From Zygnema cylindricum (Eukaryota; Streptophyta; Zygnematophyceae; Zygnematales; Zygnemataceae), in NCBI GenBank assembly GCA_037447655.1, contig JBBHKE010001811.1, positions 22,501-86,500 on the forward strand: a stretch of DNA of 64,000 bases, in the 5' to 3' direction. The translations under genes were made by a program, and so were the position numbers. How positions within the stretch are numbered: position 1 is the stretch's first letter; every line of letters begins with the position of its first letter. The notes beneath the pieces are model-generated. The model was not told the DNA's origin. It did not search any database and was given only the letters and a program-made list of their open reading frames with translations. Below are positions 25,926 through 58,435 of the stretch, one piece after another.

Positions 25926-26728
25926 GGAAAATCGCGCTAATACCTCCTTACAATATTGCGCTTGACTTTACTTTATATCACCATTCTCATGACGAATCAC
26001 TTCAATTCCCAAAATATATTTTACTTCGCCAAGATCAGTCACTTTGAAATATTGACGTAGGTATGATTTCAATTCGTGTATACGTTCCAAACTAACGTCA
26101 TCAAGAAATTATCGACGTACACTGAAAATATAATTTTATTCATTCCTTGTCCTTTCACGTACACTCCAGAATCCGAAATTGTACGTGTGAAACCAAAGTC
26201 CAAGAGAACTTTGTGTAGGCGTAGAAACCAAGTTCGAGGCCCCTGCTTCAATTGGCAGAGCGATTTTCGAAGATGCCATACCGTGCCTTCCCGTGACATC
26301 ACTCCTTCAGGTACCTTCATATAAACCTCTTCTTCTAAGTCTCTATTCAAAAACGCGGTCTCCACATCCATTTGATGAACGTGTTTCTTCCTTGCCGCGG
26401 TAGTCACCATAATCATTATTAGAGAGTCAAATTTCACAATGGGAGCATCCGTCTCCGTGTAATGTATCCCCTCTCTTTGCTGAAATCCTTTGCATATAAG
26501 TCTCGCTTTATATTTTACTACTCAACCCGATGCACAAGTTTTAGTTTTGAAGACCCATTTTGCGTCAATCACTTTTTTTCCTTCTGGTAATTTTACTTCC
26601 TCGAATGTCCGATTTTCCACAATTGACTTATACTCCTTCTCCCATGTCGGCTTCCACTTTGTTTCCCAATCACACGAGTTTCTCGCCTCCGCGTATGATT
26701 GAGGATTGCCGGCCAAATTCTCGCACAT
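25926..26728 (-). pseudogene. Ty1/copia reverse transcriptase with mutated active site
   Basis: The N-terminal part at 26728-26522 has WETKWKPTWEKEYKSI and KWVFKTK. A stop follows, then YKARLICKGFQQ and HQMDVETAFLNRDLEEEVY at 26437-26300. The catalytic box reads YVDN instead of YVDD (26106-26123), a D to N change that should abolish polymerisation. After that the frame shifts. The N-terminal peptide ends at a stop near 26523, where K-T-K is followed by a broken segment. Confidence 0.88.
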
Positions 26729-26746
26729 TAATTGTTATAAAAGGAA

Positions 26747-28129
26747 TTACGTCTCCTTTGCATTTGAGACGAAATAATGGGAGTTGGAATTTTCTCCACC
26801 AATTTTGTCATAAGAAAGCGGATTTGGTTTCTTTCCTCTTTTCTCTCGAGTACTCTGTCTAAGAACCGGAACTTGTTCCACATTTTTCTCCTCTTCATCC
26901 ACATTTGGTAAACTCGATTTTGAGCTTGAAGATTTTTGACTTTCCGTCGACATTTTGGAATTTCGGCTTACATTACTCCAAACATCAATATCAATGTCCA
27001 ATTTCTCCGAACGCGAATCAACATTTAATTTTCCCTTCTTGATGTTGACAATAGATTCCGGCTCCTCATCCGAATCCGAATCCTCAATGTCCGAGAAATT
27101 GGCAAGATTGTCTACCTCATAAAAATCAAGATTCTTCTTCAATTCCGCCGATTTCTCAATAACCGATATTAAGTCTTCATGAAAATTGACATTTCGGGAT
27201 TCTTCCACGATGCGACGAACCGGATCAAACACATGGTAAAGATTTCCTTTCAAACTATAGCCCACAAAAATTCCGGGCCAACTTCTCGCCGCAAATTTCC
27301 CTTTCCTTTTCACTTGATCCACATACAACGTAGCACGACATCCCCAAATTCGGAGATGATGGAGAGCCGATTTCCACCCATAAAGTAATTCGAATGGTGT
27401 TTTATCACCGGAAACCGAAGTAAGTCTCAGATTACAAATGTAATTGGCCGTGAGGATGACATCTCCCCATAATGAGATACTTAGACCGGCAGAATGCACC
27501 ATCGCCCTCACCATTTCCTGTAAGGTGTTATTCTTTCTTTCGGCTACTCCATTTGATTCTAGAGAATAAGGTGAAGTGAATTGTTGGGTAATTCCTTTCG
27601 CCTTACAATACCTCTCAAATGCAATAAGTTTGCCTCCATTATCCGAACGAATGGCTTTCAATTTTCGTTCGCATTGTCTTTCGGCAAATGCATGCAACTC
27701 AATAAAAGTTTCAAGAGCATCCGATTTCCTCTTCAATAATCAAACCCACGAAAATCTTGAATAATCATCAACGATGACCATAATGTATCGATTTCCTCCA
27801 AAGCTTTCTAGCTTAATTTGTCCACATAGATCATTATGGACAAGCTCCAATGGATGTTGAGCCCGAAATTTCACATCTTTCGTAGGATGTGGTTTCTGAA
27901 TTTTTAGTCCTTGACTACATCCATTGCATCCATTTACTTTTTCACAGGTAGCAAGATCCAATCCTCTCACACATGCCATTTTTATCATTCTCCTCAAATT
28001 TCCTTCGGATGTATGACACATCCGATGTTGCCATACCGTCAAATCTTCTTTTATTTCCGGGATTTGATTTAGAATGCCATTGGAAGGAGCATTCTTCCTT
28101 GGTCGCCTCCATAAAAGTCGACTATGCAT
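26747..28129 (-). pseudogene. Ty1/copia integrase
   Basis: Zinc-binding part LTVWQHRMCHTSEGNL with C..C at CNGCSQG (28129 side); core D at LVHNDLCG, D at AIRSDNGGK and E at SNGVAERKNN, all three catalytic residues kept. Then WGCRATLYV and GIFVGYSLKGNLYHVFDP, followed by an acidic, serine-rich linker (SDIEDSDSDEE) before RT. One stop near 27740 splits the domain between YSRFSWV and the next block. It would insert the DNA copy into chromosomes. Confidence 0.9.
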
Positions 28130-28292
28130 GAATTGGTGACTTCGCCTTCGCCGATTAATTTGCCGTCGGCGAGATATATGCGAATCGCCGAATCACCTCT
28201 AGCGACTACGCTTCCACCGGCACGCTGAATTTGAGGTATGCTTAATAGATTCACTGAACCGGAATATATAGAATGTTCAATAGACGCGCCTC

Positions 28293-28658
28293 TTAAATAG
28301 TTTCATTTCCAAAACAGTCCCACGTGGGTAAATTCAATCGAACGGTACCCACTTTACAAACCATAATTGGTTGTCCACTTGCGACCGTAATTAATTTTGG
28401 TACAGTAAGTGAACGCATGTCGTCTAACAATGTAGCATCCATATACACGTGGTGAGACGCTCCCGTGTCAATAATCCACTCCTTTTCTCTTGCGTCCTCT
28501 CGTGTGTCACTAAGTGAATCAATAGTGAGGTGGAGACAAGTGAACGTTTGTCTTCCTTCGCCTCCTTCAAAATTTCCCAAGCAACAAAATTCCATGGTTG
28601 TCGCCATGGCCGCCATAGCCGCCATAGCGTCCACGACCACGACCATTGTCACGTCCAC
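28293..28658 (-). pseudogene. Ty1/copia protease region
   Basis: Contains EWIIDTGASHHVY with the D-T-G-A active-site sequence intact, followed by SGQPIMVCKVGTVRLN, typical of copia aspartic proteases that cut the gag-pol polyprotein. In another frame from gag, so one frameshift separates them near 28600. A continuation at 28254-28069 (NLLSIPQIQ, then AIRIYLADGKLI) is the end of the protease and spacer and is again frame-shifted. Confidence 0.88.
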
Positions 28659-29998
28659 GGCCGCGACCTCGAAAACTTCGACCGCCTCTTACTCCTCCGC
28701 TACCAAATTTAGGATAGCATTGCTGACTCGTATGGCCTAATTTCCCACAATTGAAGCATTCTCTCTCTTTATCCGGACAAGAGGCCGAAATATGTCCTGG
28801 CCGATTGCAACGGAAACACAAGACGTTACTATTATCATTCTGGACCGTCTGAGGTCTTAGATTTCCGCTCCTATCATGCCATTTTCCACGACCTCTCGGA
28901 CCTCCTCCTTTTCCACTCTCTCTTCCACGGAAATAATGTAAATCCGCGAATTCGGGAGCAGTCACATTAAAGGATCCCGTGCCTAAGGAGCCTTTTGAGG
29001 AGCTAACACAATTACTTTCCGCCATTTTCAAATAGTTCACAATAAATTCGTAAGTATTATTTTCCCTCGCAAGTAAAATCTCCTTGAGGTGGATCCACTT
29101 ATCCGGCAATGCATTCAAAAATCCGGTTACTTATTCCTCCTTCGTGATCACTCTTCCATTGTTAAGAAGTTGCTCCACAATAATATTGAATCTCTTCACG
29201 CTATCGTCAAAAGATTCGTTGGATTTCATTTAGAAGAGCATAAAATCGGAGAACACATATTGCCCCTTGTTTTGGATTCCCCTCTCAAATTGGGATTCCA
29301 ACGCCTTCCAACATCCGTGTGCGGTGCTATGCGTGAGGAAATGATCATGCACGGACACCAAACACGTTTGCATCAATCCGGTGATGGCCGCAAGATTCTT
29401 TTGCTTCCACAAACGACGAGCCTTCGCATCTCCAACTGACATTTTCTCTTCTCTATTTACGACTTTCCAAAGACCTCCCAAAATCAATTGAGCTCGAATA
29501 TACTTCTTCCATGGAGGGTAATTCGAACCATTGAAGACCACGGTCTTTCTAGGCATTTGAAACATTTCTACTCCTCCTTGACTATCCTCCTCTAAATTGG
29601 AATCATCATCTACCTTTTGATTCCCCTTCTTATCTTTCTCTTTCTTCGCCCCTTCATCACCATCATCAGAATCTCGTCCATCCGGATCGGGATCCGGCTC
29701 ACTGTAAGCCAATTCATCAAACCTCCTATCCACGGCTGAGAATTTCTCATCAATCCGACACATAAAACTCTCCAAATACTCTCGCATTTGATTGTCGGAC
29801 ATCGAGCCACCGACACCTCTATTTTGATCAAATGAATCCGTGGGGAATGATGACTCAAACGCTGCTCCGGAAATACTGAACTAATTTTCTTCTTTAGGAG
29901 GATCCTCGGGAGTCGGCAAATTTTCCCAAAATTTCGAAACAGGGGTAGCTGAAGAGGAGGGAGTGAATGGGGACTTCTTTTTGTGCCTTCCTCCCATA
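28567..29998 (-). pseudogene. Ty1/copia gag with two zinc knuckles
   Basis: Starts at an ATG at 29998 (MGGRHKKK), then an acidic stretch (DPDPDGRDSDDGDEG), the globular domain start KTVVFNGSNYPPWKKYI and helices to about 29230. A second open part, 29118-28567, contains MNALPDKWIHLKEILLA and two CCHC knuckles, CFRCNRPGHISASC and CFNCGKLGHTSQQC, followed by an arginine/glycine-rich tail. Stops occur near 29880 and between 29230 and 29118. Gag packages element RNA. Confidence 0.88.
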
Positions 29999-38035: not shown

Positions 38036-39300
38036 CCTAGATAATGAATGTGGCAAATTCTTGAATTTTTCAATATCTTTTCTATTTAAAATGCAACATT
38101 TGTTATTATCAAGGATCATCAAACCCATTTTATGCCTGATCAGATTTTATTTTTTTTTGTTGAATTTGTGTGAATTTGTTTCTTCCAAAATTTGAGGTTT
38201 TGTTAGAACTTCTGAAAAAAACACTCAATGACTTTCGTTTCATAACTTTGAAGTTCCATATGATATTTATGTGGATTTTTTTTTCTTCATTGCATATGTC
38301 ACAATTTTGTTTTTTCCTCAATCCAATTCCTTTCCCACAACGGGAAAGTTGTCAAATTATCCAGAAACATATTATGTAGCTTTGGAATGCTTTGTTTTCT
38401 TCCAGTTTTATGAGGAAAATTTAAACTTGTTTCCAAAACTACTAGAGTGTGGCATCTACTATGACGTAAAAACTTACTTTAATCGCTTATATTGACATTG
38501 ACATATTAATAGGCATAAGATGGCATAACATTTGCATAGTGAATTATATGTTTCGAATCATTTACATTCAAGTCTACGTTAGATATTAATTTTTGGATTC
38601 GCATAGCTGGCTCCGATTTGAGGGAGGAGAAAAATGCATATTTGCCAAATCAAAGAGGAAGAGGAGGAAAAGGGGGAAAGTGCAAATGTTGCCTCCAAAA
38701 GTGAATCCTATAAACGAAATTAAAAGAAAAACAATGGGAGTTGATCTTATGGCCAAAATTGATCTTATGGATAATTCTTGTTGATTTTATAGGCGATTTT
38801 GGGCAATATTGGGTATCGCCGATTTTGTGTGACCGACGTCACATTGTGGAACAGTATCATTTGTACGACAGACGTCAGTATTTGGACGACGTGGAGTTGT
38901 ACAATTTCAACAATCATGAAGTTGTAAATAGTCACGTTCATGTGAACAAGTATGTATAGGCATCATTTCATTGGACCACATTAGAGAGTGCATTATTCAA
39001 AGAGACGGCATTAAAATACAAATAGGCACTCAGAAGAGACAAGAAATATCCCTCATCCATTAATGTCATAATGAGCAGACAAGAAATATCCCTCATCCAT
39101 TAATGTCATAATGAGCAGTACAGACATAGTCAAGTAAGACAAGAAAAAAGTTTGGCTTTATTAAGAAAGTCATTTGTAACACTTTTGTCTTGAGAGGACC
39201 ATTTATTAAAGCTACAGCTTTTGTGCACTTCTATTTTGTCTATTTATCTACTTCATCTGTTTGCTATGAATATCCCTCCCTACTCTTTCCTATCTCTCCT
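38036..39300. other. AT-rich DNA without genes; one 40-bp tandem repeat
   Basis: No domains recognised. At 39037-39116 a 40-base unit (AGACAAGAAATATCCCTC...) is present twice in perfect tandem. An odd TTGATCTTATGG pair occurs at 38740-38770. Confidence 0.5.
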
Positions 39301-41497
39301 ATCTAACTATTTCTAGTGACTCCCCAAGCCCCTCGGCGTGTATTGACCGATGTCCGGTCCAAGCTATCTCTGGCTACGGGAAACTCCTCCCGTTAGCTCG
39401 GATGACCGACCCAGAGCGACAAGTTATGGGCCCACCCATATAGGGCACGAAGGAGTTCGGATTTCTGGAACCGGAGAGCGGCGGCTATCTTGAAACGGCT
39501 GTGAGTAGAGAAGGAGAATTGGGTACATCTGCAACGAAAACACCAAGAGAAGGTGCAGCAAGTCATACCCACGCATTAGATGTCAGTGAAGAGGGAGACT
39601 TGGAGAATGACCTCCAAGGGCTCAAAGGGGAAAAGTTAACTATGGAGACATCAGCCATATCACACAAGATCAAAATAATGCGATCGCTAACTCACGCAGT
39701 CTATGATGAAACGATGTCAATCAAAGAAAACATTACCCATTTCTCTAAAAACCTAGTCAAAACAGAATCAGCTAGTCCAAACCTCCCACCAATTACTAGA
39801 ATTTCATCGCTAATTTTGTTCCTACCTCATTAGTTCACATCGCCTCTCACCATTGTGGAGGGCCGCGAGAGGAAGGAGTGGAAGCGAGAGGAGGTGGTCA
39901 ACAAGCTCATAGCTACCAATGGCTCCACCGAGGTGGTGATGCCTGAGAAGGCCTTCGAGTACAAGCCTAGCATCAAGGAAAGGAGCGGTCATAGATCTGA
40001 CAAGTAGGTGACAGGGTAGAGATCAAGCAAACTAGTCAACACCCAAATCACAAGGATTCTAAATGCTAAACGAGCAAACTAGTCAACACCCAAATCACAA
40101 GGATTCTAAATGCTAAACGAGAATTCAGATCACAAACAAAGACGATCAAAGCAGAGTGGGGACATGCAAGGTAGATAGCAGTGGAGGAGAGGATAATTAA
40201 GATAGAAAGACCTCTCATAACCTCACCACAGACCACACCCCAGACTGCATCATGATCCCAAACGCAAGCATATTTCCAACAAAAAATGCTAAAGAAGGAG
40301 AAAGTCTGCCACGATGGCAAAAAGGAGGAAAACAGGAACTTACCAAGTTTGGGGAATCATACGGGATGATTCACAAAGAGAATCTACAAAGAAAGACTAA
40401 CACAATTTCCATGCAGGATCCCCAAGAGGAGACCCCAAAGCAGACTGCTGACGATAACGTCCAAATGTTTGCAGATCTTGAAGTAGGAAGCACTAAGCGA
40501 TGAGACGCCATCTTGCCAAAGATAAAAGAAGTTGTTAGAGAGGACGACAAAAAAGTTTAGATCCCTTACACAGAGAACCGAAGCAGCAAACAGGTGTGCT
40601 ACACGGTTAGATCCACAAAGGTTGGAGTGATAACAACAAAGATCAATACTGGCTCACGCAAGACGAGCACTAACGGCTTAAAGATGAGCATTCATAGAAA
40701 TAGAGACTCGAGAGTGAAGGAGACTGTTGTTCTGAGACAAGTGTTGGTACTGAAGATGAAGAAGATGCAGCAGTAGTCATCGTAGAACAAATAAAGAGAG
40801 GAAGCTTCCACAAATACCGATGGCTGAACAGAAACTTTGACAGACTATAACTTTCAGAAAAACGCTCCAAACGTCCTGAAAATTTGCCACAGTGTAGATA
40901 ACATACAAAGAAACACACACACAAAATTTCAATCAATTCCGCTCACAAATCTGTGAGATATGTAGAAATGAAATTACATAAAACTGAGTGTACAGTTTTC
41001 ATATCATTTGTTCGTAATGATCAAATTCACTACGTCCTACTTTTATACACCGAAACTACACTAAGCTGTACGGAGGCATTCCAGCCGTACATCTAACATT
41101 CTATCACAAATATTTACACCGAAGTTCAGACAACGTAAAGTGATAATGATCTAGTCACGCCTCGTCACTATTTGTTGGCGGCGGCTGTCAGCGGTCCGAT
41201 TAGAGGATTTGGCACCGTAGAATTGACTTCACTAAGTCCAGTGGTCCTGCCGAATTTCCGTACGTCCACGGAGGACATACTCACGCATTCTCCCAAGTGA
41301 CGACACGTGTCCCAAGTGTGAATGAACTGTGAACTCCCAACTTCACTGTCACACTAATTTCGGTAAGTACTGAACCGAACTCAACCAAAAATAGCTTAAG
41401 TCCTGAACAGCTCTCTCTCACAGCTGAGGCATAAAGAGGACTAAAGCTTTCTAAAAACAACAGAGACAACCGAGAGATCTCACCTTATCTGCTGGTG
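39301..41497. other. Unassigned segment with short reading frames and a codon-biased fragment
   Basis: Open frames at 39501-39833 (110 residues, no family recognised), 40252-40503 and 40594-40776 suggest one decayed coding unit of unknown kind on the plus strand. Part of it (39840-40003) uses G/C at most third positions (GAG, AAG, GTG, CTC), unlike everything around it. A 47-base unit repeats at 40027-40121. No domain or LTR could be named. Confidence 0.4.
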
Positions 41498-44580: not shown

Positions 44581-44586
44581 AAAGAT

Positions 44587-45456
44587 TGTTGAAATTTAAG
44601 TATTTTATAGGTCAAGAGATTGTAAAATAAAAGCCAAAACAATGATAGCTTGCTTCTAACAGTTCACTTAAGTCCCCACACTTGTCATAGTCACTAAAGA
44701 CTTAGGGAGGAGTAAGATCCAAGGCTGCCTAGGCTGTCCAAAGAAGACGGAAGGTAAACCTCGATAGAGTTACCTTAAATATTTGACGGACCCATGATTT
44801 GATCCGAGTACCTGCCGTCTATCAAATTAGCCGATAGCCTTAACCTACAACTCTAGGATTAATGATAAAGTATATGAGGTTTGATAAATATTTATTATGT
44901 TACACGTGGACTAGTTCATTTAACGAGATATAGATACATAATGCATAGATACAATTTTGTACAATTTTAATGTAGTATACGAAACGGATACCTCGCATTT
45001 GTTTCAAACACGAAACAAATACCGCGCACGTATTTATGACGGTTATGATCAAAACCTGGTTTCGATCGGACGACCAAAGAGGATGTTGAGATCACGAAAG
45101 AATATTTCGGCGGTTTACGGTCATCGCCACATATGATGACACGTGGCAAATTGACATTGGATCGCGGCATCTCTGAGGATTATGTGAACGAATCTAGAGA
45201 TGACATGTGTCGACATTTTGGCCATGTCGTACGATGGCCGTACAAAAAGTACACCGGCACCTATACTTTTCTGTACGACACAGTAATTTGATTGGTGCCG
45301 TACGTCAGTAGATAGAGTTTTAGAGAGAGATACGACTTAGAAAAATTTACTAGGTAGCAGCCTCTCTCTGAGAGAGCTCCTGTACAAAAGGGTCATCTTT
45401 AACCATTTATATCTATCAATTTACTTGACCATTTTCAATGATTCTTTTTGCTGCAG
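44587..45456 (+). repeat. LTR A (5' LTR of copia element A)
   Basis: Begins TGTTGAAATTTAAG, ends TTTTGCTGCA, about 870 bases. It matches the LTR at 57067-57939 almost throughout. It directly abuts the broken gag of D on its left. Contains ACGTGGCAAATTGACATTGG and TAGAGTTTTAGAGAGAGATA blocks common to the family. Confidence 0.82.
44788..44858 (-). other. tRNA-like segment inside LTR A
   Basis: Minus strand: GTAGGTTAAGGCTATCGGC (box A-like) and GGATCAAATCATGGG (box B-like). Antisense to the element, at the family position. Confidence 0.5.
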
Positions 45457-45761
45457 ACTCAAGGGAGTCCAGGCTACACAAAGGTGTAGTCGGTTAGAGT
45501 TTTTGCCTGCCAGGGTGGCTGCATTTCTAAGGGAAAGTTAAAGTGGGTGAATGTGTCCAAAACTCATATTCTAACTTTGCATTCTGTGGTGGAACTGAGC
45601 ACACAGAAAGTATTATTTCCCACGGGTGAAGCTATAATTGGTTTTTTATTTTCAATGGGTCTGTCATTTGGGTTGATATCAACTTGGAGTCGGCACTACT
45701 TAGATTAGCTTCTTTTGGATATGCGATTTCTGTGGGCAATACAGCACACATAGTTTCAGGT

Positions 45762-46965
45762 TATGGGCCCACCATCTAGGGTGCCTATGTTTGATGGAAC
45801 AAGCTTCACTTATTGGGGATTTATGATGGAGGGATTTCTTTTCGAAAATCACTTATAGGGAATTGTTTCGGGAAAAGTGAGATGTCCGCCAACTGGCTTT
45901 GGAGGAGCTTACTATGGAGAATCATCGGAGGCTGCCCACAATATCAACCGAAATTCAGATGCAACAGAAGTTGAAGGGAAAAACCTTGTCGTGGATGAGG
46001 AAATAGGGGAGAAGGAAAAAGGGACACTTATGGTGAGGGGAGCTAGGCTCTAAGCTATGGTACCACTTGTAGGGACTAAAAATGAGGAAAAAGACAGAAA
46101 AATATGGGAATACAAAATCACTATAGCAAAGCATCTTATACTTAGAAACGTGTCTAAGTCCATAGCTATCACTCTTATTAACTTAAAGAAGTGTTCATAG
46201 ATATGGGAAGCGCTAAGTCAGATTTATAAAAGTGAGACTATTCAGAGGCAGCAATAAGTAAAACAAGAAATAGATGCCTATGTTAATAAAGGCGGTAGCA
46301 TGATAGAGTTTTGCAATGATATTGTTGCGCTATATGTTGAGCTTGCCAGTGCAGGATATGTAGAATCTGAGGAGATAAAGATTAATACACTATTTATGAA
46401 ACTCCCAGATGAGTACGAAAACATCATTTGCATAATTTGTCCTATGCAGGCAATGGGTGTCTCCTCATGGACTTGGAGCTTTACCATGGGTATAATTCTT
46501 GTGAGGGAAAGCACTTTGGAGCTTCGTAGGGGAAGTGACAGAGTGAATGCATTTACAGCTGGTGGTGATTGGCGAGCTAGATGAGAGGAACGACGATGAC
46601 AAGGGGAAGCGTGATGAGAGGAAGAAAGACAAAGGTAAACCTTATCGGAACTTTGGTAGAAAGATAGGGAGAGGAAAAAAAATGAGAGCTTTGAAAAAAG
46701 GGAGTTGCTTCTTTAGTAGGGAACCGGGTCATTATATTGAGGAATGCCCTTGTTTGAAAGAACTTAGTTGGAATGTGGATGAGGAGGAAGAAGGGGAAGA
46801 GGAGTAAAAGGATAAAGATATGTTAGAGCTTCTTCGCATCGGTAGTTTGGGGAAGAGAGAAAAGCAACCAGAAATTCCACGTAAGCAACATTGTGCTTTT
46901 GGAGGTATAAGGGAAGTAAAGAGAGAGGAAATACTTGAGGGAGTTCAAAAAATTGAGGATAGTGT
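45762..46965 (+). pseudogene. Gag of copia element A
   Basis: Starts near MGPPSRVPMFDGTSF and reads, with stops at about 45856 and 46050, into SMIEFCNDIVALYVELASAG and MKLPDEYENII (46300-46584). A basic stretch follows (DDDKGKRDERKKDKGKPYR), then a knuckle in which the second cysteine is a serine (CFFSREPGHYIEEC, about 46707-46750). A protease-proximal piece HCAFGGIREVK follows at 46884 and matches HKCAFGGLKG in element B. The reading then meets the inserted gypsy element. The rest of A's pol is reduced to an RNase H piece at 56650-57000. Confidence 0.8.
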
Positions 46966-48256
46966 CATGCCGTAAGACGTCCGCGGGTATTATTCATCCA
47001 ACTCATACTAATTGTGTCTTTGTGACGTAACAAGTCTGTACGGTAGCATACGGCCTGAAGTACGGGCAGGATAGAAACTTGATTATGTACTCATGTACGG
47101 TACAGAGTGAACGCTGTACGGAACCCACATGGAATTGGGCTGCGGTACAGCATTGGATGTTCAGAACTCAACGGCTTCGAACGTGACAAATGTCAAAGTC
47201 ATGGACCCTCATAGGTTCATGCAATTATTTTTGCTTAGCATAGGGAGGGTTTTGATCCTCGAGGTGTACATGTAAGGCATCCCCAGGCGGCCACGCAACG
47301 GCTGTCTCTAGAACTGGCAGCGTTTGGGCATAATAACCTGCACGCTCAGAGACACATAGAAATTAGTGTAGCTGTACGGTTAGCACAAAGCATAGCATAA
47401 AGGCCAAATGGCACGATAGGAAAAATTGCAAATTTTAAACACGGGAATCCAACATTGTAAAGTTGTTGCTTTCTAACCAGCTCATTCTCAAGATTTGTCG
47501 AACTTGTGGGAATTAGGGTTTCGGCCTGATTATTCATCGCAGACCAGTTTTTGAGTTAGGGTTTCTTCTCTGGACCATAGCTTATGCTTGTATCTGTCTC
47601 TAAGCTTTCTCACATTCTCTTCTAATCAAGTCCTTACCTAAATCTACAGGCGCAAGCCAGCGTGCAAGGTTTCCCTCTAGACTATTGTCTACTTGCCGTG
47701 GTGTATTCATTGTGTTATGTGGATTTAGTATTTTCATGTTTTCAAAGTGTTGATTGTGCGGTCCAGCTCTCCTTTTAGCCTGATCTTGGGGAACGCCGGC
47801 TATCTCGGTTTCTCCGTCCGGTTGGAGGAGGGTTATTGGCTGACCGGTTGGTCTCATGAAGGGAATATCAAAGACTTCAGGGCCTAGTGGCTATTGTCGC
47901 AAATATTCCCGTGTTTAAAATTTAAAATTTATTTTTCTTCCGATTGCTGTTTCTTTAATTTGTTGTTTCTGCAATTTGTTGTTTCTTCAATCTGTTGCTT
48001 TTCCAATTTGCTTATTTCCTTTCAATTTTCTTTATTGCTGGTTTAATTGTTTTCTCTTCAGTTTATGGTTGAATTGTTGGTATTTTATAATACCTGCATG
48101 TTTCATTCCATTTATTGTTCGGTTATTGTTGAGATTGTTCGGTCTGAGATTGCTGAATTGTCCGGTATAGTTTTATCTTCTTTCTTCCTACCGGATTAAC
48201 TCACTCAGAACATCTAGCAAACTTAAAACATTAAAAAAAAAAAAAAAAATCCTCTA

Positions 48257-48340
<84 letters not shown>

Positions 48341-49029
48341 GTTGCACGAATTATCACAAAAACTATAATTGCTTTATAGTTGGGCAGAGCGTGGCATAGT
48401 GCTGATACGCGTGCCCTAACAGGCTACTAACTAAGTTGGTCATTGAGCTGCGGTGTTTCCCGACAATCTGGAATTGGAGAGGGATTGGAGCTCGCAGTAC
48501 CATACTTGGTGCTATCGCTCTAAGGTGAGTATTCGGCTCCTTGTGGTTGCAGGCGCGAAGTAGGTAGTAAGTGCAATCGTTTAGAGGGATTATCGTCAAC
48601 CGAAGGCTGTGCCTTTTGTTTGTATAGAGCATTTGTCGCATTTTCTTAGATCTGACCGTGATTGGTCTTGGATAGCGGCTTCTTGATTTTTTACATCTGG
48701 CCTTGTTGGCCCTGATAGTTCCCTGCTTTTATTAGATCTGGCCACAAGTGGCCCTGAATAGGTGACATGTTTTCTTTTTGGTGTGGTTTGCTGTGAATTC
48801 TTGAGGTCTGCCTAGATCTGGCTGTGAACGGCCTTGTTAGGGGGGGGGTTTCGATTAGACTAACCTTGGTGATTCAGAATAGGCCGAATCGTGGGGGTGG
48901 TGTCTGTTTGCTTGAATTGATATACTTCTTGTGTGGTTGATTGGTAGATCTGGCAGTGGGCATCTGCACACTGACCTTGATTAGTGCGTTTCATATAGTT
49001 GCATCCGGATAGGCCGATTGACTGATTAC
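46966..49029 (+). other. 5' region of the inserted Ty3/gypsy element (LTR and leader not delimited)
   Basis: Non-coding. I expected a 5' LTR and primer site but could not match this sequence to the 3' end at 56130-56350, so the LTRs are undefined. It includes a 19-base perfect inverted repeat pair (47430-47448 and 47904-47922), a (TA)n tract at 48262-48338 and a run of nine G at 48840-48848. The left insertion point is near 46970: CATGC at 46966-46974 recurs at 56361 region and is a candidate target duplication. Confidence 0.5.
48262..48338. repeat. (TA)n microsatellite in the gypsy leader
   Basis: About 38 perfect TA units following an A-rich run at 48232-48249. Confidence 0.95.
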
Positions 49030-50990
49030 ATGCCCACAGAATGGAATAATTTACAGGTTCCGGCTGGTACCACTAGAAGCTCGAGTCTTTACCGTGGACT
49101 GGCTAGGGATTCCATTCCTGTCGGATCCTCTCCGTTACAGTCTCCCTATCATACTGATCAATCTCAGCTTACAGGTTCACCCACACCCAGATCTGGTATC
49201 TCTCTTAGCGATAGAACTACATCATCTGTTTCGTCGTCTTCTTCCCACAGTTGGGGGGAAGATTCTGACATAGACTCCCTTGATATCCGGGATCTGAACT
49301 TACCGCCCTCACTCTTTCCGTTGGGCGGAACTATACACACTAACTCGGGTCCCTTTTGTGTGGACATGGCCTCGTCCATGGACACCGTAGGAGGTAAAAA
49401 TCAGTTTTGTTTTTCGGGTCTCAAAGATACTATGTCCTTGTCACATTTTCGCATGCTTTTTGATACTGAGATGCGCGATCTCGCATTTCGGTATCAAGAT
49501 CGTTATGATTTGCGTGTAGCTTTTTCTTTGCTGGGACGATACCTAAGGGGATCAGCTTTATCCCTCTATACTCGGAAATATGCATTAATTTGTGCTATGA
49601 CTGAGATGGCACCCGACTATCCCGGTTCGCCAGCCATAACTGGCAGCCAGGAAATTCCTTTCCAAGCCGCAGTTCCCGCAGTTTATGACCCTACCGGTTT
49701 TGAAATTTCACCCGAAATACCTGAGATTCCTCATCAATTCGCGGTGGCAGCTCGGGCAGCAATTCTTGCTCGAGCAGCCATGCTGGTTCCCTTACGGGAT
49801 CCGGTTTCGTTTGTTTTTAGTTTGTTACAGGAAGACTACAGAATCCAAAATCCTGACCAAGTCAAAGAACTAATGAATTTTGAACGCAGGCTGGGTGAAA
49901 CTGCCCCGGCAATGCGAGCACGTAGGGAAACCTTACGTGAAGCCCTGCCTGACCTAATGTCAGACGCAGAGGCAGTACAGAAATTTGTAGGACAATTTCC
50001 CACTCAACTTGTCGATTCATTCAAAGTCATCTAACTGAAGCATATGGTCTGAAATTTACTTTCGAGCAGGCTGCAGAATATGCCTTAAGGTATGAAATGC
50101 AGACCAGCTGGTGGGACGCTCACGAGCGGCCTAAACCTTCTCCTAGGGATCACCCAAATCCGAATCCTAATCCTAACCCTCGCCCATGGCCAAATCCCAA
50201 ACCTCCAAGAGTCCCGGCCATGGGATCTCTCCCAACAACCCCCGGGGTGCGTATTTGCTTCCGGTGCGGTAACACCGGTCACGACGCACGCAGCTGTCCA
50301 GATAAGACAGCCACGTGTACTCACTGTAACCAAACAGGTCATTACATTCACAGGTGTCATATTAAAAACCCTGACTTCAGTTATCAAAATCAAATCAAAA
50401 ATGGCGGTATACCTGCCCGCTCGGCAAAATTGGTCACTCCACCTAAAGAGGTAGAGAAAGACGCACCTCCCAAAATCAGCAGGAGGGATCGAGATAAAGC
50501 CGAGATGCAGGCTACCGTTGCGGCCATGATGAAGGAGCAGTTTGCCGCGCTCATGGCGCAGGTCAAACCGCAATTATCTAGAATGGCTCAAACCGTCGTT
50601 CACATGCCCTCCTTTGCAGGTCGATCTCTGCGAGAGTCCACTGTTCAACAGCGGGCAGCTCAGTTTAAAGGGACTCCTAATCATAACCGCGAGTCGAAGT
50701 CCATTAACACCCGTATTCCATTATCATTTGCCAAAGAACCACTCCCGCCTATTCCAGAAACCGCCTCCAGCATCACAGCTGAGGCACTAACAATTCTAGA
50801 GAAAAGTATCCAAGAAACCTATAAGGTCAAAGAGCGGTTGTCCATACTGTCCACCATGCTTCCGGATTTAGTGCGCGACACCAAACTCGCGGATCTAACT
50901 AAATATGATCAATCTGCACATGCATTACAGGCCATTCAGAATAACCGAAACTCTCTCTCTCTCCAAGCAATCACTCTTGAAGAGCGCGCT
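49030..50990 (+). pseudogene. Ty3/gypsy gag with two CCHC zinc knuckles
   Basis: An ATG at 49030 opens a frame with a serine-rich N-terminus. A gag-like helical domain follows (FVFSLLQEDYRIQNPDQV and NFERRLGETAPAMRARRE) and stops at 50034 after a one-base loss. The frame resumes from about 50040 to a proline/asparagine-rich spacer, then knuckles CFRCGNTGHDARSC (50256-50297) and CTHCNQTGHYIHRC (50316-50357), and a charged helix (RRDRDKAEMQATVAAMMKE). It then runs without a break into the protease, so gag and pol are one frame apart from the lesion. Gag is unusually large for gypsy because of the N-terminal extension. It packages RNA. Confidence 0.85.
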
Positions 50991-51600
50991 AGTCTTACAC
51001 CACACATAAGTTTTTTAGATAACAAACTTGGAGTATTCACAGTTAATGGGGTTGCCCCGGCATTACCTCTAATGGACACTGGCGCAAAACCAATTATCCT
51101 CGGGTCGGATTTTGCAATCAAAATAGGTCTGACGGTAGATAAATTACAACCTACAACCACACGTCTGTTGACCTCCGCGGGCACCACAGAACCGGTCCTC
51201 GGAATCACGAAAGAACCAGTCTGTTTCCAGTTCCAGAGTCATTCGGAGACAGATTTCGCAGAGATATATGCCTACGCCTTGGTCACCAAGTGTAGTGATT
51301 ATGAATGCCTCGTTGGCCAAGACGTGATTTTCCGCGTAGGGGGGGGGGGGGTTGATATGCATGATCAAACATTTTCTTACAGGCCGAACAACTTTCCTGA
51401 ACGCAAAATCTGCTTACCTCTTATCTGGGCCCGACAACCTATGCCTACCACGGCTCATTCCCCACTAATTTTGCACGCCTATGCCGCAGTTGGCATAGGA
51501 GCGGATATTCTGGAATCTTTAACAGCGGAAGAAATCTCGTTAGATCCTCCGGGTATACCAGAATTATTTAGCACAACCGGATTTACCATTAATTTTTCAA
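50991..51600 (+). pseudogene. Ty3/gypsy aspartic protease
   Basis: LPLMDTGAKPIILGSDFA carries the D-T-G-A active site (D at 51075-51077), followed by TRLLTSAGTTEPVLGITKE and an LVGQDVIFRVGGGG flap-like end; it cleaves the polyprotein. A run of 13 G at 51339-51351 falls within the reading frame (glycines) and may be a slippage site. Still in the same frame as the zinc knuckles. A spacer of about 100 residues follows before the methyltransferase. Confidence 0.85.
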
Positions 51601-51734
51601 ATTTTGACCGTCTTTATAAGTCCACTATACCAATCCCGTTATCGAGTATTCCGGATCCACCCTCCATTACGATGGATCCGTCAGGGTTCCTGCCTATTAA
51701 TTGGAAACCTGTCAATTTGCAACCCCACCAAAAC

Positions 51735-52700
51735 GGTCTCGTTATCTTAGACCTTTTTGTAATAATAAGAACTTCACTTCTCTCCTCTCTTTAGAACAGT
51801 CTTCTTATTAAGCATTACTATTCCGTAGAAATTGACCCATTGGGTAGACGCGTCCAGTTACACCAGTGTCAAATCCTACACGAACAATATCCTCACCTCT
51901 TACCAAAGTCCGCTTTTCATGACATGCATTCGGCTCTACCACAAGATATCCGTCTCATAGGAAACCACCATTTGTTAGAATTAGAACCGATAGATCTTCA
52001 CTTCGCCGGATGGGAATGTCAGGGTATGTCTAGGGCTGGGAAGGGTTTAGGTCTCGCAGATCCGCGTACTAAGTTGTTCTTCGAGGTGGTGCGCCTTATA
52101 CATTTTTTCCAAACACTGAACCGTCCTTTCGAGTACATTTTAGAAAATATCGTAGCTTATAATGATCCCTGACCCATGGTCCTTGCACATTACAAGCGTA
52201 TTGAATCACTGATTGGACCGCCATTAATTATCGATGCCACACGTCACGGTTCACTGGCTCACAGGGTTCGTTCCAAGTGGACTAACCTGGTAGACATGGG
52301 TCGGCTCCGAAAAGCTAACCTCGCCGTCCGTCCACCTAATCTTTTCATTCAAGATGCACTTCTCCCATTTTATAGAGTCCAGACCTACATTCAGACAGAC
52401 TATCCTCCTGCTTTCGGTCTCAACATTCCTTGTCAACCACTACGTGCACTTCCTACACTAGTCTCATATCCGCACTCTCACGCATATTCACACAACGGAC
52501 CGGGCATGCTCCATGCCCAGAATACTCACACAGGTAGTCTAGAAGAACCCAGTGCTGCAGAACAGGAACACCTTTTACATTTTATCCCAGGCACCACTGC
52601 CGCTCCAGGACTCACCGAGCGGCAACGCTGCACCTTACTCGGTCGGGTCATGGACCCCCAGTCACTTTCATTTGTCTTGGGAATGGGATTTGCAGCTGGT
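51735..52700 (+). pseudogene. C5-cytosine DNA methyltransferase domain inside the gypsy polyprotein (DNMT3-like)
   Basis: In one frame, interrupted by stops at 51792 and 52170, conserved motifs appear in the usual, non-permuted order. Motif I: LVILDLF (51738-51758, with the following glycines lost). Motif II: YYSVEIDP (51816-51839). Motif IV: FAGWECQGMSRAGKG with the catalytic cysteine codon at 52017-52019. LADPRTKLFFEVVRLI follows. Motif VI: EYILENI (E at 52143). Motif VIII: AHRVRSKWTNL after IDATRHGS. The motif IX/target region: RALPTLVSYPHSHAY. Motif X: LLGRVMDPQSLSF. AdoMet-dependent DNA methyltransferases of this family transfer a methyl group to C5 of cytosine. Non-permuted order excludes a plant DRM-type arrangement. 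Such enzymes in gypsy elements are known in charophytes. This copy is probably inactive. Confidence 0.9.
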
Positions 52701-53200
52701 CGATACTCACAGAACAATCCGTCTCAATCAGCTGGGGGGGGGCATACACCATGGAAACACACGGCATCTAAGTCCTCACCTTCTCTCCGAGGTACAAATT
52801 TTCAGCTCTCGCTTTTTCCGCCTTCTGCTAAGTCTGACTCAGCGCACACCATTTATGATTTTTTGGTTCCCAGTCACATGATTTGGTCGCTCCTAGCATA
52901 CACAGCTGCTAGGTCTTAAACACCTCCACAGGTATCCCCACACTGGACAGCTGCCTTTCCATCTAGAAGTTGGCATCACGCAGTAAACTGTTTGCATATG
53001 CTTCCAGTCGAGTATGAGTTGGGCCACTCCTTGATAGCTGATGAACAACTAGCATTTGCACAAGCCATAGAGGCTATGACAATTAGTACTCCTGAAAAAC
53101 AGACATGGAAATTTGGACCCGGACTAACAAAGACTGAACACGAACTTTTAGATGGAGTCATAAATCGACATCTGGACGCATTCGCTTTCTCCATGAAAGA
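52701..53200 (+). pseudogene. Spacer between methyltransferase and reverse transcriptase
   Basis: Same reading frame as the methyltransferase up to a stop at 52917, then open again from 52920. It includes nine G at 52734-52742 and, after the stop, ELGHSLIADEQLAFAQAIEAM. ETEWESVDKR-type residues begin the RT at about 53280. The stretch resembles no named domain. Confidence 0.5.
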
Positions 53201-54130
53201 CTTGGGGCGACACACCACGTACCGAATGTTTATTGACCTGGAAGATGACAGACCCATCTTCAAGCCCAAACATCGTCTATCAGAAACTGAATGGGAATCG
53301 GTGGACAAACGATGCGCGGAATTGGAAGAGGCAGGTATGATTTATAGGTCTGATTCCACTTTCGCGGCGCCCACCGTTATGCCTCGTAAAAAAGACGCAG
53401 AGGGAAATTTTACAGAACGTCGTATGTGTGGAGACTATCGAGAACTAAACTCACGTATGATCCAAGACCGGCACTCGATGCCGTTGGCAGAGGACATCTT
53501 CAATCATGTCGGAGGAGCTGAATATTTAGTATCCTAGATCTGCGACAAGGTTTTAACCAAATCAAGATAGAGGAAAAGGACCGACACAAGACTGCATTTT
53601 AGGGTAATGACGGACGTTGCGAATGGGCGGTTATGCCTTTTGGACTGAAAAATGCACCGGCGGTATTCCAGAAGATCATAGACTTGGTCTTGGGGGCATG
53701 TAACTTTGCCCGTTGCTATATCGACGACTTGATAATCGCCTCGGCTACTATAGAGGAACATGCTGTTCATATAGAGTGGGTGTTGAAGGAATTAAAAAAG
53801 GTAAGACTTAAATGTCATCCTGCTAAATGTACCTGCGGGGCCGAAGGGGTCCCATGCCTTGGGCATTTTATCTCATCTGAAAGAATTACTCCATTAGAGG
53901 TCAAAGTGGAAGCCATTAGTAAACTACCGGCCCCAACTGATTTGACCAATCTGCGAGCATTTCTCGGATTGACTAATTATTACCGCAGGTTTGTTCCCAG
54001 TTTCAGTACCATTGCATCTCCATTGAATGAACTCCTAAAAAAATCAATTCCGTTCTCTTGGGGGCCAACTCAGATAGAAGCTTTTCAGGGTTTAAAGACG
54101 CGTTGTCCACTGCTCCCATTCTTCGTCCTC
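53201..54130 (+). pseudogene. Ty3/gypsy reverse transcriptase
   Basis: HRLSETEWESVDKRCAELE, EAGMIYRSDSTFAAPTVMPR, RRMCGDYRELNSRM and DRHSMPLAEDIFNHVGGAEY form the N-terminal half (to 53536). A one-base loss near 53527 and a W-to-stop change at 53603 intervene. PFGLKNAPAVFQKIID and the catalytic YIDDLIIAS (53717-53743) follow, then GHFISSERITPLEVKVEAI, LRAFLGLTNYYRRF and SSPLNELLKK-type residues. The active site is intact. Copies RNA to DNA. Confidence 0.93.
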
Positions 54131-54560
54131 CAAATCATAAATTACCTTTTTGTCTATAGACTGACTTTGGTAAGCCCGGTATTACTGCAATCCTAACTCA
54201 GCGTGAACTCACTGGTGAGGAATACGTAGTGGCCTACGCCAGTAGAAGCAACAATCAAGCGGAATCAAATTACAGCAGTTACGAGGGAGAATGCCTCGCC
54301 GCAGTTTGGGGTATTGTGCATTTCCGACATTATCTCTATGGCAAGCCTTTTACTCTTCTTACTGATCATCAACCATTGCATTGGCTCATGACCAATGACA
54401 AGCTATCTGGCAAGTTAGCCCGTTGGGCTCTTATTTTACATGAATATGATATGGAGATAATTCATCGACCCGGGCTCCTCAGCTTGAATGCCGACGGGCT
54501 CTCCAGGAACCCTTTGCCCAACTCTGCTGATAACGAGGTACGACAAGATTTTGAGGGCGA
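54131..54560 (+). pseudogene. Ty3/gypsy RNase H
   Basis: After a frameshift near 54100, readable residues TDFGKPGITAIL, YVVAYASRSNNQAESNYSS and YEGECLAAVWGIVHFRHYL follow, then LLTDHQPLHWLM and HEYDMEIIHRPG. Catalytic acids (D of TDFG, E of GECLA, D of LLTDH) are all present, with one stop (TAG at about 54147) in the first part. Removes RNA from the hybrid. Confidence 0.9.
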
Positions 54561-55617
54561 AACTATTGCGTCCCTATCGGCTGGAGGGCATCTCGTTTAC
54601 AGTTTTGCGGCTCCTACGAACCACAAAATCGAACACGATCCATGGCGGGACAGTGCTTTGATTCATTTTCTTTCTACTCAGTCTTTTCGGGTAAGCACTT
54701 TGACAACGGAAGAGGAGCGTGTTTGCAAGAGAGCCCAAAGTTACTTATGGATGATGGGCTCACATATCCGTCTTCTCGCAGATGGAAGCCATCGTCATGT
54801 CCTTCGGCCAACGGAGCAATTATCTCTTATTAATATGATACATACCGACCTTGAGCACTATGGTACCAAGCGGACCCTGAGTTTGGTATAGGCTCGCTAT
54901 TGGTGGGCCGGCATGCAAGCCGACGTAGCATCTGTGTTGCAGGAATGCAGCACATGTGACAGGTTACGGACATCCTTTTCTAACCGGCAGACTACACTTC
55001 AACCATTGCCTATTCGGGGTCTCTTTTACAGGTGGTCGTGCGACTTGGCCGGTCCCTTCTCTATTTCTCGAAGGGGAAAGCAATATATTATGATAATGAT
55101 TGAAAATTTCAGCAAATGGGTGGAAGTTGTGGCTCTCCCGCATAAAACTGCCAAACTTACCACTGCAGCGTTCAAAGAGCATGTGCTCCTCCGATATGGA
55201 GCCCCAGCGGAAGTACTTACAGACCAAGGAACCGAGTTCCGCGGCGAGTTTCAGGAGATGTTGGACGAGGCGCTGATCGATCACCGTCGAACGAGTCGAG
55301 ATCATCCCCAAGCAGACGGTTTGGCGGAAAGAGCCGTGCAAACATTTAAGCGGGCTCTGCGTAAACACTGCTTAGAAAAACAGATTACTGTGTGGGACGA
55401 ATCATTGGGATATATTACCATGGGTTATCGAATGTCTGTACATGCTAGTTTAGCGAATTTTAGTCCATACTATATGTTGTTTGGTCGGAAACCGCTGCTA
55501 GGTAGAAATGTACAGAAAGCTGCTAGTTTGCCTTTGCCACTTATGTCAGATTCTCTTTTTCTGGAAGAACTAACTAACTGGGCGTTGCTTTTCGCTAGAA
55601 ATGCCCATGGCCTTTGA
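54561..55617 (+). pseudogene. Ty3/gypsy integrase
   Basis: Contains the H-H-C-C zinc part (IHTDLEHYGTKRTL, then CSTCDR) split by a TAG at 54889. The core D at SCDLAGPF (55042), D at LTDQGTEF (55222) and E at GLAERAVQTFK (55327) are all intact. Residues AYHPQTDG of many gypsy elements are RDHPQADG here. The domain ends with SPYYMLFGRKPLLGR. A frame change occurs at about 55610 before the C-terminal tail. It would insert the element's cDNA into chromosomes. Confidence 0.93.
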
Positions 55618-56109
55618 AAATTTGCAGATTGCTCAACATCGTGTCTCCTTACGGTTTGCAACAACTCGCAGCGGCAGCTACCGTCCACAACAAAAGCCCT
55701 TCCGATGGGGGATTACGTTTATTTGCGACGGCAAACGTTTGACACCCTCGATACAGATGTCTCACCTCACATTCTGAGGATTACAGCAATTAATCCCAAT
55801 GGATTATTGAGCTTCCAAGGGGCCGAAACTTGGACTTTACGAGAGCATTCGAAAAATTGTGCCCCCTGCTATCTACCCGATCTTTCCCACAGCATGGATC
55901 CCTGGAGGATGCCGATTACTGAGGCCACCGAGTGTCAGTTGTGCCGGCGATCTGATGGAGAAACAACAATGCTGCTCTGTGACTATTGCAATCTGGGATT
56001 TCATATGGAGTGTCTGGTTCCACTTTTACACACTATCCCGGTTGGACAGTGGTTTTGCCACGGATGTCCCGACCTGCCTGCTGTCCTTCCCAACTACCCT
56101 GCAGACTAA
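55618..56109 (+). pseudogene. Integrase C-terminal tail with PHD finger
   Basis: A GDYVYLRRQTFDT segment resembles the GPY/F-like tail, then WTLREHSKNCAPCY. A canonical C4-H-C3 PHD finger follows at 55933-56067: CQLC, LCDYC, FHMEC and the final CHGC; the spacing of all eight zinc ligands is kept. PHD fingers commonly read histone H3 N-terminal tails. Its place at the integrase end, where chromoviruses carry a chromodomain, suggests a role in choosing insertion chromatin; that is inference. The frame ends in TAA at 56107 with the finger reading through. Confidence 0.9.
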
Positions 56110-56360
56110 GGAGCTGGGGGGGGGGAGGGTAATTCCAACCTTACTTACCTTACCTTGCTTTACCTTTTGTTTTTCTCAGTTCATATAATTTGCATATTCG
56201 TTTTTTCCCAACATATTCATTTATTGTTTTCTCGCTGTATAAATGCTTTGTATTTTGGATGCGGTGACAAACACTGTACATATATGTTGATTGGATACAT
56301 TCTGGTGTTTTTTCGGCAACTCAAGCTAGGACTAATGCATGTCCTTCACGGTAGCCTGCC
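56110..56360 (+). promoter_or_regulatory. Polypurine tract and presumed 3' LTR of the gypsy element
   Basis: A G-rich tract (ten G at 56116-56125, then AGGG) directly after the PHD stop is the expected polypurine tract. The following 230 bases would be the 3' LTR, but no 5' counterpart was recognised and its end does not show clear CA. 56361 begins copia DNA again. Confidence 0.5.
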
Positions 56361-57066
56361 ATGCACGACAATAGTTTCATAGATATTTTGGAAACAGAAA
56401 ACTGGTCAGAAAGGGAGACTTCAACGGATTCCGAGGAAAGGGGAGACGTGAAACTAGACGGGGTTCTAAAGGATAGGGGAGAAGAGGAATGTTTAATGAA
56501 AGGTATAGGGGAGGAGAAATATTTAGCGGGAATAAATTTAGAAAGTGATAGTGGAAAGAATTCCATGGGAGAGAGTAAAGAAAGTTCAGAAAATGGGTTG
56601 AGAATCATGGATAAAAATATGAGTTCAGAAGATGTAGATTTTACAAGGAACTTAGTGGGGACTGTTGATTTAAGGATAAATTTGGGGGGTTATGGTTTTG
56701 ACATCACTAATGGGAGTTACCCTCTATAAAAGTGTGCTTGTAGAAGGGTTAGCATCTAAGTATGTGTTGCAAATTGGGGATGGGGCTGATTGTTAAAAAT
56801 GGAAAAAGGAAGAGGGATTTTGGTTGGATGAAAAGGGGAGGAGGTGGATAAAATCTTTGCTCAGATGAAAAATGGCATGCAAAATAAATTGTATGATCGA
56901 CAAGATGAAATTATTTTTGGTCATCTAATAAACTTTCTTAAATATAAAGGTATTCGCTTGAAGCTTCATGAAGGAAAAAGGAAAAATGAAAGGAAGATAT
57001 ATATATAAATGTATTTGTTGTTTTTAAAGGGAGTTGAAAGTAAATTAGACTAGAAAATAAGGGGAG
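56361..57066 (+). pseudogene. RNase H remainder of copia element A
   Basis: After an acidic open frame (56361-56729), the phrases DFTRNLVGTVDLRINLGG, then KYVLQIGDGADC at about 56757 and MQNKLYDRQDEI at 56875, follow the copia RNase H order of the 15.7 kb element (RYLVGTRELWLLLGG, RYMLQIGSGVCC, VQNFFCDNQAAI). Heavily decayed. It ends in a polypurine tract ATAAGGGGAG just before the LTR at 57067. Together with gag A at 45.7-46.9 kb it shows the gypsy element inserted into copia A. Confidence 0.65.
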
Positions 57067-57939
57067 TGTTTAAATTTATGTATTTTATAGGTCTAGAGAT
57101 TGTAAAATAAAAGCCAAAACAATGATAGCTTGCCTCTAACTCTTCACTCAAGTCCCCACACTTGTCGCAGTCACTAAAGACTTGAGGAGGATTTAGATCA
57201 ATGGCTGCCTAGGCTGTCCAAAGAGGACAGGAAGGCAAACCTCGATAGAGTTACCTTAAATATTTGACGGACCCAGGATTTGATGCGGTTACCTGCCATC
57301 CGTCAAATTAGCCAGTAGCCTTAACCTACAAGTCTAGGATTAATGATAAAATATATGAGGTTTGATAAATATTTATTATGTTACACGTAGACTAGTTCAT
57401 TTAACGGGATATAGATACGTAATGCATAAATACAATTTTTGTACGATTTTAATGTACTACATGAAACAGATACCTCGCATTTGTTTCAAACACAAAACAA
57501 ACACCGCGCACGTATTTATGACGGCTACGATCAAAACCTGGTTTCGATCGGACAACCAAAAAGGATGCTGAGATGGCGAATGAATATTTCGGCGGTTTAC
57601 CGTCATTGCCACATATGATGACACGTGGCAAAATGACATTGGAACGCGGCATCTTCGAGGATTACTTGAACGAATCTAGAGATGACATGTGTCGACATTT
57701 TGGCCATGTCGTAAGATGGTCGTACAAAAAGTACACCGGCACCTGTACTTTTATGTACGACACAGTAATTTGATTGGTGCCGTACGTCAGTAGATAGAGT
57801 TTTAGAGAGAGATACGACTAAGAAAAATTTAGTAGGTAGCAGCCTCTCTCCGAGAGAGCTCCTGTACAAAAGGGTCATCTTTGACCATTCATATCTATCA
57901 ATTTACTTGACCATTTTCAATGATTCTTTTTGCTCCGCA
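57067..57939 (+). repeat. LTR B (3' LTR of A, 5' LTR of B)
   Basis: Begins TGTTTAAATTTATG after AATAAGGGGAG and ends TGCTCCGCA. It matches LTR A at 44587-45456. A leader homologous to A's follows, so this LTR serves two elements. The tRNA-like segment is at 57269-57339 on the minus strand. Confidence 0.85.
57269..57339 (-). other. tRNA-like segment inside LTR B
   Basis: Minus strand: GTAGGTTAAGGCTACTGGC (box A-like) and GCATCAAATCCTGGG (box B-like). Same site and orientation as in LTR A. Confidence 0.5.
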
Positions 57940-58220
57940 CTCAGGGGTGTCCGGGCTACACAGAAGTGTAGTCGGTCAGAGTTTTTGCCTGCCAGGGTGG
58001 CTTAATTTCTAAGGGAAAGTTAAAGTGGGTGAATGTGTTCAAAACTCATATTCTAACTTTTTATTCTGTGGTGGAACTGAGCACACAGAAAGTCCTATTT
58101 CATTAGGGTGAAGCTATAATGGGTTTGTGATTGTCAAGGGGTCAGTAATTTGGGTTTATATCAACTTGGAGTCGACCCTCTCTAGATAAACTTCTTTTGG
58201 ATCTGCGATTTCTGTGGGCT
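57940..58220 (+). other. Leader of copia element B, joined to the protease
   Basis: Matches the leader of element A (from 45457) up to the GAAGCACACAAAGTTTC phrase. It then skips what in A is the whole gag (about 1.1 kb) and continues at the protease-proximal sequence. Confidence 0.7.
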
Positions 58221-58435
58221 TTGAAGCACACAAAGTTTCAAAGACCGAGGTCGAAATTCCTCTACAGCACAAATGTGCTTTTGGAGGTTTGAAAGGTGAA
58301 GGAGGTTGGATTGTGGATTGCGGTGCCTCTATACACATGTGTAAGGATAAACACCTGTTCACTGAGATGAGAAAGATTCCCACTGTAGATATAGAGTGTG
58401 AGGCACTACTACTATGGTAGGATAGGTAAATCTAA
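58221..58435 (+). pseudogene. Protease of copia element B (gag-less)
   Basis: HKCAFGGLKGEGGWIVDCG and then ASIHMCKDKHLF with a protease site reading D-C-G-A-S where D-T/S-G-A is usual. Gag is missing between leader and protease. An ATG upstream is not clear (58214 start would be CTG-like). Protease fold beyond this is out of frame. Confidence 0.75.

Follow-up and report, generated by a model that had tools for sequence, protein, structure and literature searches.

The window, a 64,000-nucleotide stretch of the Zygnema cylindricum genome, contains a Ty3/gypsy retrotransposon with a cytosine DNA methyltransferase (DNMT) domain inside its Pol frame. This element is almost certainly the decayed remnant of one copy in an abundant Ty3/gypsy family of the KnitGypsy-Dnmt3 kind that has recently been active. 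Hosts silence transposons by cytosine methylation, so an element that brings and keeps its own methyltransferase poses a paradox. That paradox was reported in 2018 from few examples of DNMT-bearing elements; the Zygnema genome offers many copies in two separate families, including copies that are open and recently inserted.

The element in the window

The insertion is 9408 bp long, as delimited by several blocks of similarity to a copy elsewhere in the genome (C1344), and its parts are listed in Table 1. We assigned it to Ty3/gypsy by its order of reverse transcriptase (RT), RNase H and integrase and by its Ty3-type DDE integrase, as identified with Pfam and the PDB. Comparing the window with itself revealed no terminal repeat pair for the element, and the C1344 repeat A has only one match there (46963-47905). 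Comparison with other copies explains this: full copies carry split repeats in the order A-coding-B-A-B, whereas the window copy has the form A-coding-B, which, with its target-site duplication intact, is perhaps the product expected of recombination between B1 and B2. A purine tract at 56132 does not open a 3' LTR, a reading that was considered and rejected, since the tract lies at the start of repeat B.

Table 1. Features of the Ty3/gypsy insertion, in window coordinates.
Feature	Position	Strand	Evidence or remark
Whole insertion	46963..56370	+	TGTC at start, GACA at end; matches C1344 in blocks
Left 4-bp target-site duplication, atag	46959..46962		
Right 4-bp target-site duplication, atag	56371..56374		
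Repeat A, 5' copy	46963..47905	+	73.9% identity to the 931-bp repeat A of C1344
Leader; AT microsatellite and spaced AGATCTGGCC-type motifs	47906..49017	+	
gag	49018..50034	+	Open frame; tblastn matches in seven other copies
Zinc knuckle, CCHC	50253..50300	+	PF00098 E=8e-4, slightly below cut-off
Aspartic protease	51039..51215	+	PF13650 E=2e-4, slightly below cut-off
C5-methyltransferase domain, decayed in window copy	51735..52700	+	PF00145; DNMT3A 4.2e-9; L021 counterpart PF00145 8.4e-13
In-frame TAG soon after motif I	51792..51794	+	
Glu-Cys of motif IV	52014..52019	+	E where P is usual
In-frame TGA past motif VI	52170..52172	+	
In-frame TAA between DNMT and RT	52917..52919	+	
Reverse transcriptase, part 1	52992..53537	+	In the DNMT's frame; counterparts in seven other copies
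Reverse transcriptase, part 2; different frame, YIDD box	53633..54196	+	PF00078 3e-13
RNase H	54229..54891	+	PF17917 5.4e-26
DDE integrase	54913..55617	+	PF00665 4e-13; top PDB match Ty3 Gag-Pol 7q5b 2.5e-10
PHD finger 3' of integrase	55933..56067	+	PF00628 3e-10; PDB PHF12, BAZ2B, WSTF, ATXR5
Repeat B	56128..56370	+	Start approximate; single in window copy, B1 and B2 in full copies

A first-pass annotation had placed a C5-methyltransferase in frame between the protease and RT of the Pol region, and this was borne out by Pfam, by a frame test and by seven further copies. Every string that it quoted is present in frame in the translation of 51735-52700, the catalytic Cys codon is at 52017-52019 as claimed, and the motif order is non-permuted, with motif I preceding IV, VI and VIII. 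The profile PF00145 scored 35.4 bits in the window copy against a cut-off of 22, and reached E=1e-8 for the first half of the domain alone (51795-52169); the methyltransferase of another locus, L021, scored 48.9 bits (8.4e-13). When we compared the window domain with solved structures using phmmer (stops written as X), DNMT3A/B/C filled the first 29 of 42 PDB rows (best 4.2e-9), followed by M.HaeIII as the best bacterial match (0.021) and M.HhaI (0.031), while DNMT1, CMT and DRM gave no rows at E up to 1. Frame 0 of 50067-53534 contains 3 stops in 1156 codons, compared with 55-71 in each of the other five frames, a count matched by none of 1000 mononucleotide shuffles. The protease, the DNMT and the first part of the RT therefore share one long-kept frame. 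RT part 1 has no Pfam match when searched alone.

The C-terminal half of the DNMT domain, for which Pfam gave no separate match and whose score is equalled by 2 of 2000 shuffles, a weak margin, is putatively assigned from its position and its likeness among copies. For 'LLGRVMD' as a candidate motif X, the position fits and the copies agree with one another, but the profile test gives it no support, its score being reached by 1732 of 5000 shuffles. Structure prediction from the single sequence gave a pLDDT of 30.9, too low to be of use.

The window copy itself is dead, whatever the rest of the family does. Its DNMT is broken by the TAG at 51792 and the TGA at 52170, and the TAA at 52917 is followed by frame changes in the remaining pol. 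Motif I reads DLFVIIRTSLL, compared with DLFAGIGTSLL in several open copies; with the glycines of the SAM motif lost, the 'LVILDLF' that had been listed among the enzyme's motifs is not a working SAM motif, and motif IV has WEC in place of PC. The proposal that the element might write a mark on its own cDNA or its neighbours is thus impossible for this copy. The CpG observed/expected ratio is 0.81 over 48340-56131 and falls between the values of the window's copia-like stretches (0.49, 0.51 and 1.24), so there is no clear CpG decay. The copia-like stretch with the ratio of 1.24 lies on the minus strand at 25323-29802; the other two are near 0.5.

Several other features of the window caught our attention. 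All four plus-strand G runs of at least 8 fall inside the element (48840, 51339, 52734 and 56116), and C1344 again has G runs in the protease, 3' of the DNMT and 5' of repeat B. Within the leader, 48648-48980 contains five spaced AGATCTGGCC-loop-GGCC-like motifs that resemble a row of small hairpins; the RNA fold of the whole leader stretch was not significant (z=+0.5), and Rfam produced no match at gathering scores. A 1.18-kb direct repeat (44584-45758 and 57064-58240, 91% identical) flanks the gypsy insertion, with copia-like pieces near both of its copies. Tandem duplications of 40 and 47 bp, each matching at 100%, occur at 39037-39118 and 40026-40121.

Copies, selection and a variant catalytic motif

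We searched the genome assembly (352.8 Mb in 2689 contigs) for relatives of the element. The C-terminal half of the domain matches at least 150 places, the window's included, at 58-100% identity (from 1539 candidates), some of which may be allelic duplicates. By tblastn, gag, protease, DNMT, RT, RNase H, integrase and PHD finger were present in all seven copies that we fetched, not all of them unbroken. The first-pass annotation had proposed looking for intact copies, and a copy with an open frame does exist: C1344 encodes all domains in one uninterrupted frame of 2395 codons and carries two identical 931-bp A repeats. Six of the seven copies have an A pair, with identities of 100, 99.6, 99.1, 97.3, 96.3 and 80.3%, and the near-identical pairs indicate that at least some copies are young; the upstream piece of C1407 has none. 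A B pair is present in all seven downstream pieces (186-243 bp, 95.7-100% identical). Exact 4-bp duplications, such as integrases produce, flank C1344, C1063, C2234 and C2602 as well as the window copy; C449 has no such duplication at its flanks, and C2495 and C1407, which were not scorable, stand outside this count. Five copies (C449, C1063, C2234, C2495 and C2602) have an identical score in the C-terminal half (375.9 bits, 70%), which points to a recent burst in a different subfamily.

Purifying selection acts on the methyltransferase. Seven of the 31 loci with a DNMT match are stop-free over at least 93% of the domain, five of the 31 being pieces whose borders cut through it. For dN/dS we used six of these seven, leaving out L022 (99.7% identical to L021), together with a 282-codon part of C449, giving 21 pairs. 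The ratio was 0.06, 0.06, 0.16, 0.21 and 0.31 in the five pairs with unsaturated dS, dS being saturated in the other 16. Being free of stops does not make a domain intact: a motif I glycine and the motif VI Glu are gone from L018, L052 lacks motif I and L056 differs at many positions, so decay contributes to some of these ratios. Across subfamilies (L021 versus L054 and C449), the dN of the DNMT is 0.15-0.17, nearer to that of RT, integrase and PHD finger (0.08-0.15) than to that of protease (0.27-0.28) or gag (0.37-0.40). The blocks GWECQGMSRAGKGLGLA, AAYNDPRPTVL, LIGPPLIIDAA and VRSKWTNL are common to six sequences. Motif I has the form DLFAGIGTSLL in 8 of 31 loci (L020, L021, L022, L026, L030, L053, L054 and C449) and is altered in the window copy and several others.

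The residue before the catalytic Cys sets the family apart. It is Glu in every one of the 28 readable loci (31 with a match, window included; three unreadable), all of which have the Cys, although the motif-reading pattern itself requires that Cys. By comparison, Pro occupies this position in all 18 aligned reference enzymes, 3 of them eukaryotic and 15 from phages and plasmids, and to our knowledge it is near-invariant across C5-methyltransferases at large. The change from Pro to Glu beside the catalytic Cys may impair or alter catalysis. Judged by sequence, membership of PF00145 stands despite the Glu, proline being usual and not profile-defining.

A second gypsy family in the same genome has the ordinary motif. 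PF00145 gave at least 123 matches above cut-off over the whole genome (782 candidates), some at copies of the window family (C1344, C1407, C449 and others), and others covering a longer part of the profile. We examined the second family at three loci, L057 (C1374), L058 (C544) and L059 (C633), whose DNMTs are 39-44% identical to the window's and whose motif IV reads WPCQGYS in all three. An RT follows 3' of the DNMT in one frame in two of these pieces; the third ends before the expected place of the RT. The position of the DNMT before the RT in both gypsy families suggests that they could descend from one old capture. Glu-Cys and Pro-Cys form a natural contrast between like enzymes in one host. 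Together with the many copies, some of them open and recently inserted, this makes two questions directly testable: whether an element's DNMT methylates the element's own copies, and whether selection maintains the domain for its catalysis.

Origin and possible function of the enzyme

Two alternatives concern where the domain came from. It might be an artefact, an assembly chimera or nested pseudogene lying between protease and RT, as the decay of the window copy might suggest; the order gag-PR-DNMT-RT-RNase H-INT-PHD recurs in all seven copies on other contigs, once in a single open frame, which speaks against a chimera and makes this reading exceedingly improbable. Alternatively, the source of the enzyme could have been a methyltransferase of a phage or bacterium and not a host DNMT3, its likeness to DNMT3 then reflecting the kinship between DNMT3 and these phage enzymes. 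Pairwise, the phage enzyme P2559Y scores 3.2e-10 against 4.1e-9 for DNMT3A, the profile phrog_116 reaches 3.9e-12 against 1e-8 for Pfam, tblastn E values go down to 2e-9, and the motif IV-V stretch 'CQG.S.AGK.L...DPR.KLFFE' is phage-like. The best tree with four copies nevertheless unites the family with DNMT3A+DRM (modest support, 81/71), from a set without plant DNMT3 and K. nitens sequences, and AHRxR, P..IDA and EN..A are common to the element and DNMT3A in alignments. Plain LG+G4 trees likewise put the element next to DNMT3A+DRM, at 51/71 with 17 rows and 81/84 with 19 rows. Forcing the four copies together with the phage enzymes cost 1.7 log units (p-AU 0.19), with the bacterial-plus-DNMT1 set 1.0 (p-AU 0.40) and with DNMT1 alone 8.7 (p-AU 0.058); for the window copy alone, p-AU was 0.48 for DNMT3A+DRM, 0.53 for phage, 0.30 for bacterial plus DNMT1 and 0.011 for DNMT1. 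The DNMT of the second family favours neither side, scoring alike against DNMT3A, phi92 and P2559Y, and a search of viral and prokaryotic contigs with exact peptide patterns confirmed no relatives. The enzyme had been called DNMT3-like, and by its best solved match it appears to be; the trees reject neither a phage nor a bacterial-plus-DNMT1 placement. Capture from a phage or bacterium seems to us rather unlikely.

The PHD finger, found by tblastn in all seven copies, offers a possible link to chromatin. Its nearest solved sequences are those of PHF12, BAZ2B, WSTF and ATXR5, of which the last three are chromatin proteins, and PHD fingers of the BAZ2B/WSTF/ATXR5 type read the H3 tail. The coding capacity is present and conserved, and recent movement and 4-bp duplications are documented; beyond this, we propose that the DNMT would be made inside the Gag-Pol polyprotein and enter the particle alongside RT and integrase, where it could act on, or bind, new double-stranded cDNA before or during integration. 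On insertion, copies would then already bear a methylation mark or lie within methylated chromatin, and the PHD finger might direct the integrase to chromatin in a particular state. As a whole, a recently active family of the KnitGypsy-Dnmt3 kind together with this mechanism is the best explanation, and we consider it reasonably probable. Weighing against it are the Glu of motif IV, the weak profile support for the C-terminal part, the CpG ratio of the element, the loss of key residues in some stop-free copies and the yeast result for KnitGypsy-Dnmt3 described below.

What selection keeps in the enzyme is less certain. Methylation of cDNA as the selected function of the element DNMT is possible, though we lean slightly against it. 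A more tentative suggestion is that the Glu-Cys lineage has been kept under selection through recent transposition for an activity that may depart from the usual methylation of CpG (a different base context, a substrate of RNA or RNA-DNA hybrid, or cDNA binding without methyl transfer) and that may be coupled to the PHD reader. Going further, the domain might no longer methylate DNA at all and be retained to bind cDNA, RNA or some host partner, much as DNMT3L is kept without catalysis. The uniform Glu beside the catalytic Cys, where the references and the second family have Pro, points that way; the catalytic Cys in all 28 readable copies, the motif I glycines in many open copies and the purifying selection on the domain point the other way, and we find this reading doubtful. 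Less probable again is action in trans, in which the enzyme would change host methylation across the genome or at the insertion site instead of marking cDNA, even though a route to chromatin could be provided by the PHD finger and integrase that share its polyprotein.

Comparison with known DNMT-bearing elements

The literature covered here, with preprints, most subscription papers, figures and supplements outside its scope, yielded de Mendoza 2018 (PMC5890265) as the only primary report of a gypsy-borne DNMT that we recognised. PMC12344493, citing that study, mentions DNMT3 in LTR 'Copia' and DIRS elements, and the words PHD, methyltransferase and Klebsormidium are absent from PMC6317226, a survey of plant LTR retrotransposons. 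According to the main text of de Mendoza 2018, the DIRS-element enzymes methylated CG in yeast and methylation of cDNA was proposed for DIRS elements, whereas the KnitGypsy-Dnmt3 enzyme gave no methylation in yeast, a result that the authors call inconclusive.

Several enzymes resemble that of the Zygnema family in part. As described in the text of PMC5890265, SymbioDIRS-Dnmt3 and SymbioLINE-Dnmt likewise carry a DNMT within a retrotransposon, and SymbioDIRS-Dnmt3 shares the A-coding-B-A-B repeats, but it has a tyrosine recombinase in place of the DDE integrase and 4-bp duplications seen here. Plant DNMT3, which combines the methyltransferase with DUF3444 in the account of Yaari 2019 (PMC6453930), also has a non-permuted DNMT3-type domain; the element DNMT differs in lying within Pol and has no DUF3444 match in the pieces tested. 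The plant DRM methyltransferases are DNMT3-related as well but permuted, unlike the element DNMT.

The closest counterpart is KnitGypsy-Dnmt3 of Klebsormidium nitens, for which the text of de Mendoza 2018 (PMC5890265) describes DIRS-like repeats, a DNMT encoded within the Pol ORF and Ka/Ks values below 0.2. The Zygnema family likewise has a Dnmt3-like, non-permuted DNMT within a Ty3/gypsy Pol ORF (the single 2395-codon frame of C1344), DIRS-like A-coding-B-A-B repeats combined with gypsy domains (in full copies, not the window copy) and purifying selection on the DNMT. In copy number, at least 150 places match in the Zygnema genome, and the same text gives the K. nitens elements fewer copies than those of Symbiodinium. 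Three points differ from that text. Glu precedes the catalytic Cys here, whereas the key residues there are described, in the text, as conserved; a PHD finger is present here, whereas the word PHD is absent from the main text of PMC5890265; and 4-bp duplications are found here, whereas 'target site' is absent from that main text. The K. nitens elements may share all three features. Compared by description, the testable features agree, and we therefore file the window family as the same kind of element, to which it adds an altered catalytic motif, a PHD finger 3' of the integrase and 4-bp duplications shown at the ends of several copies.
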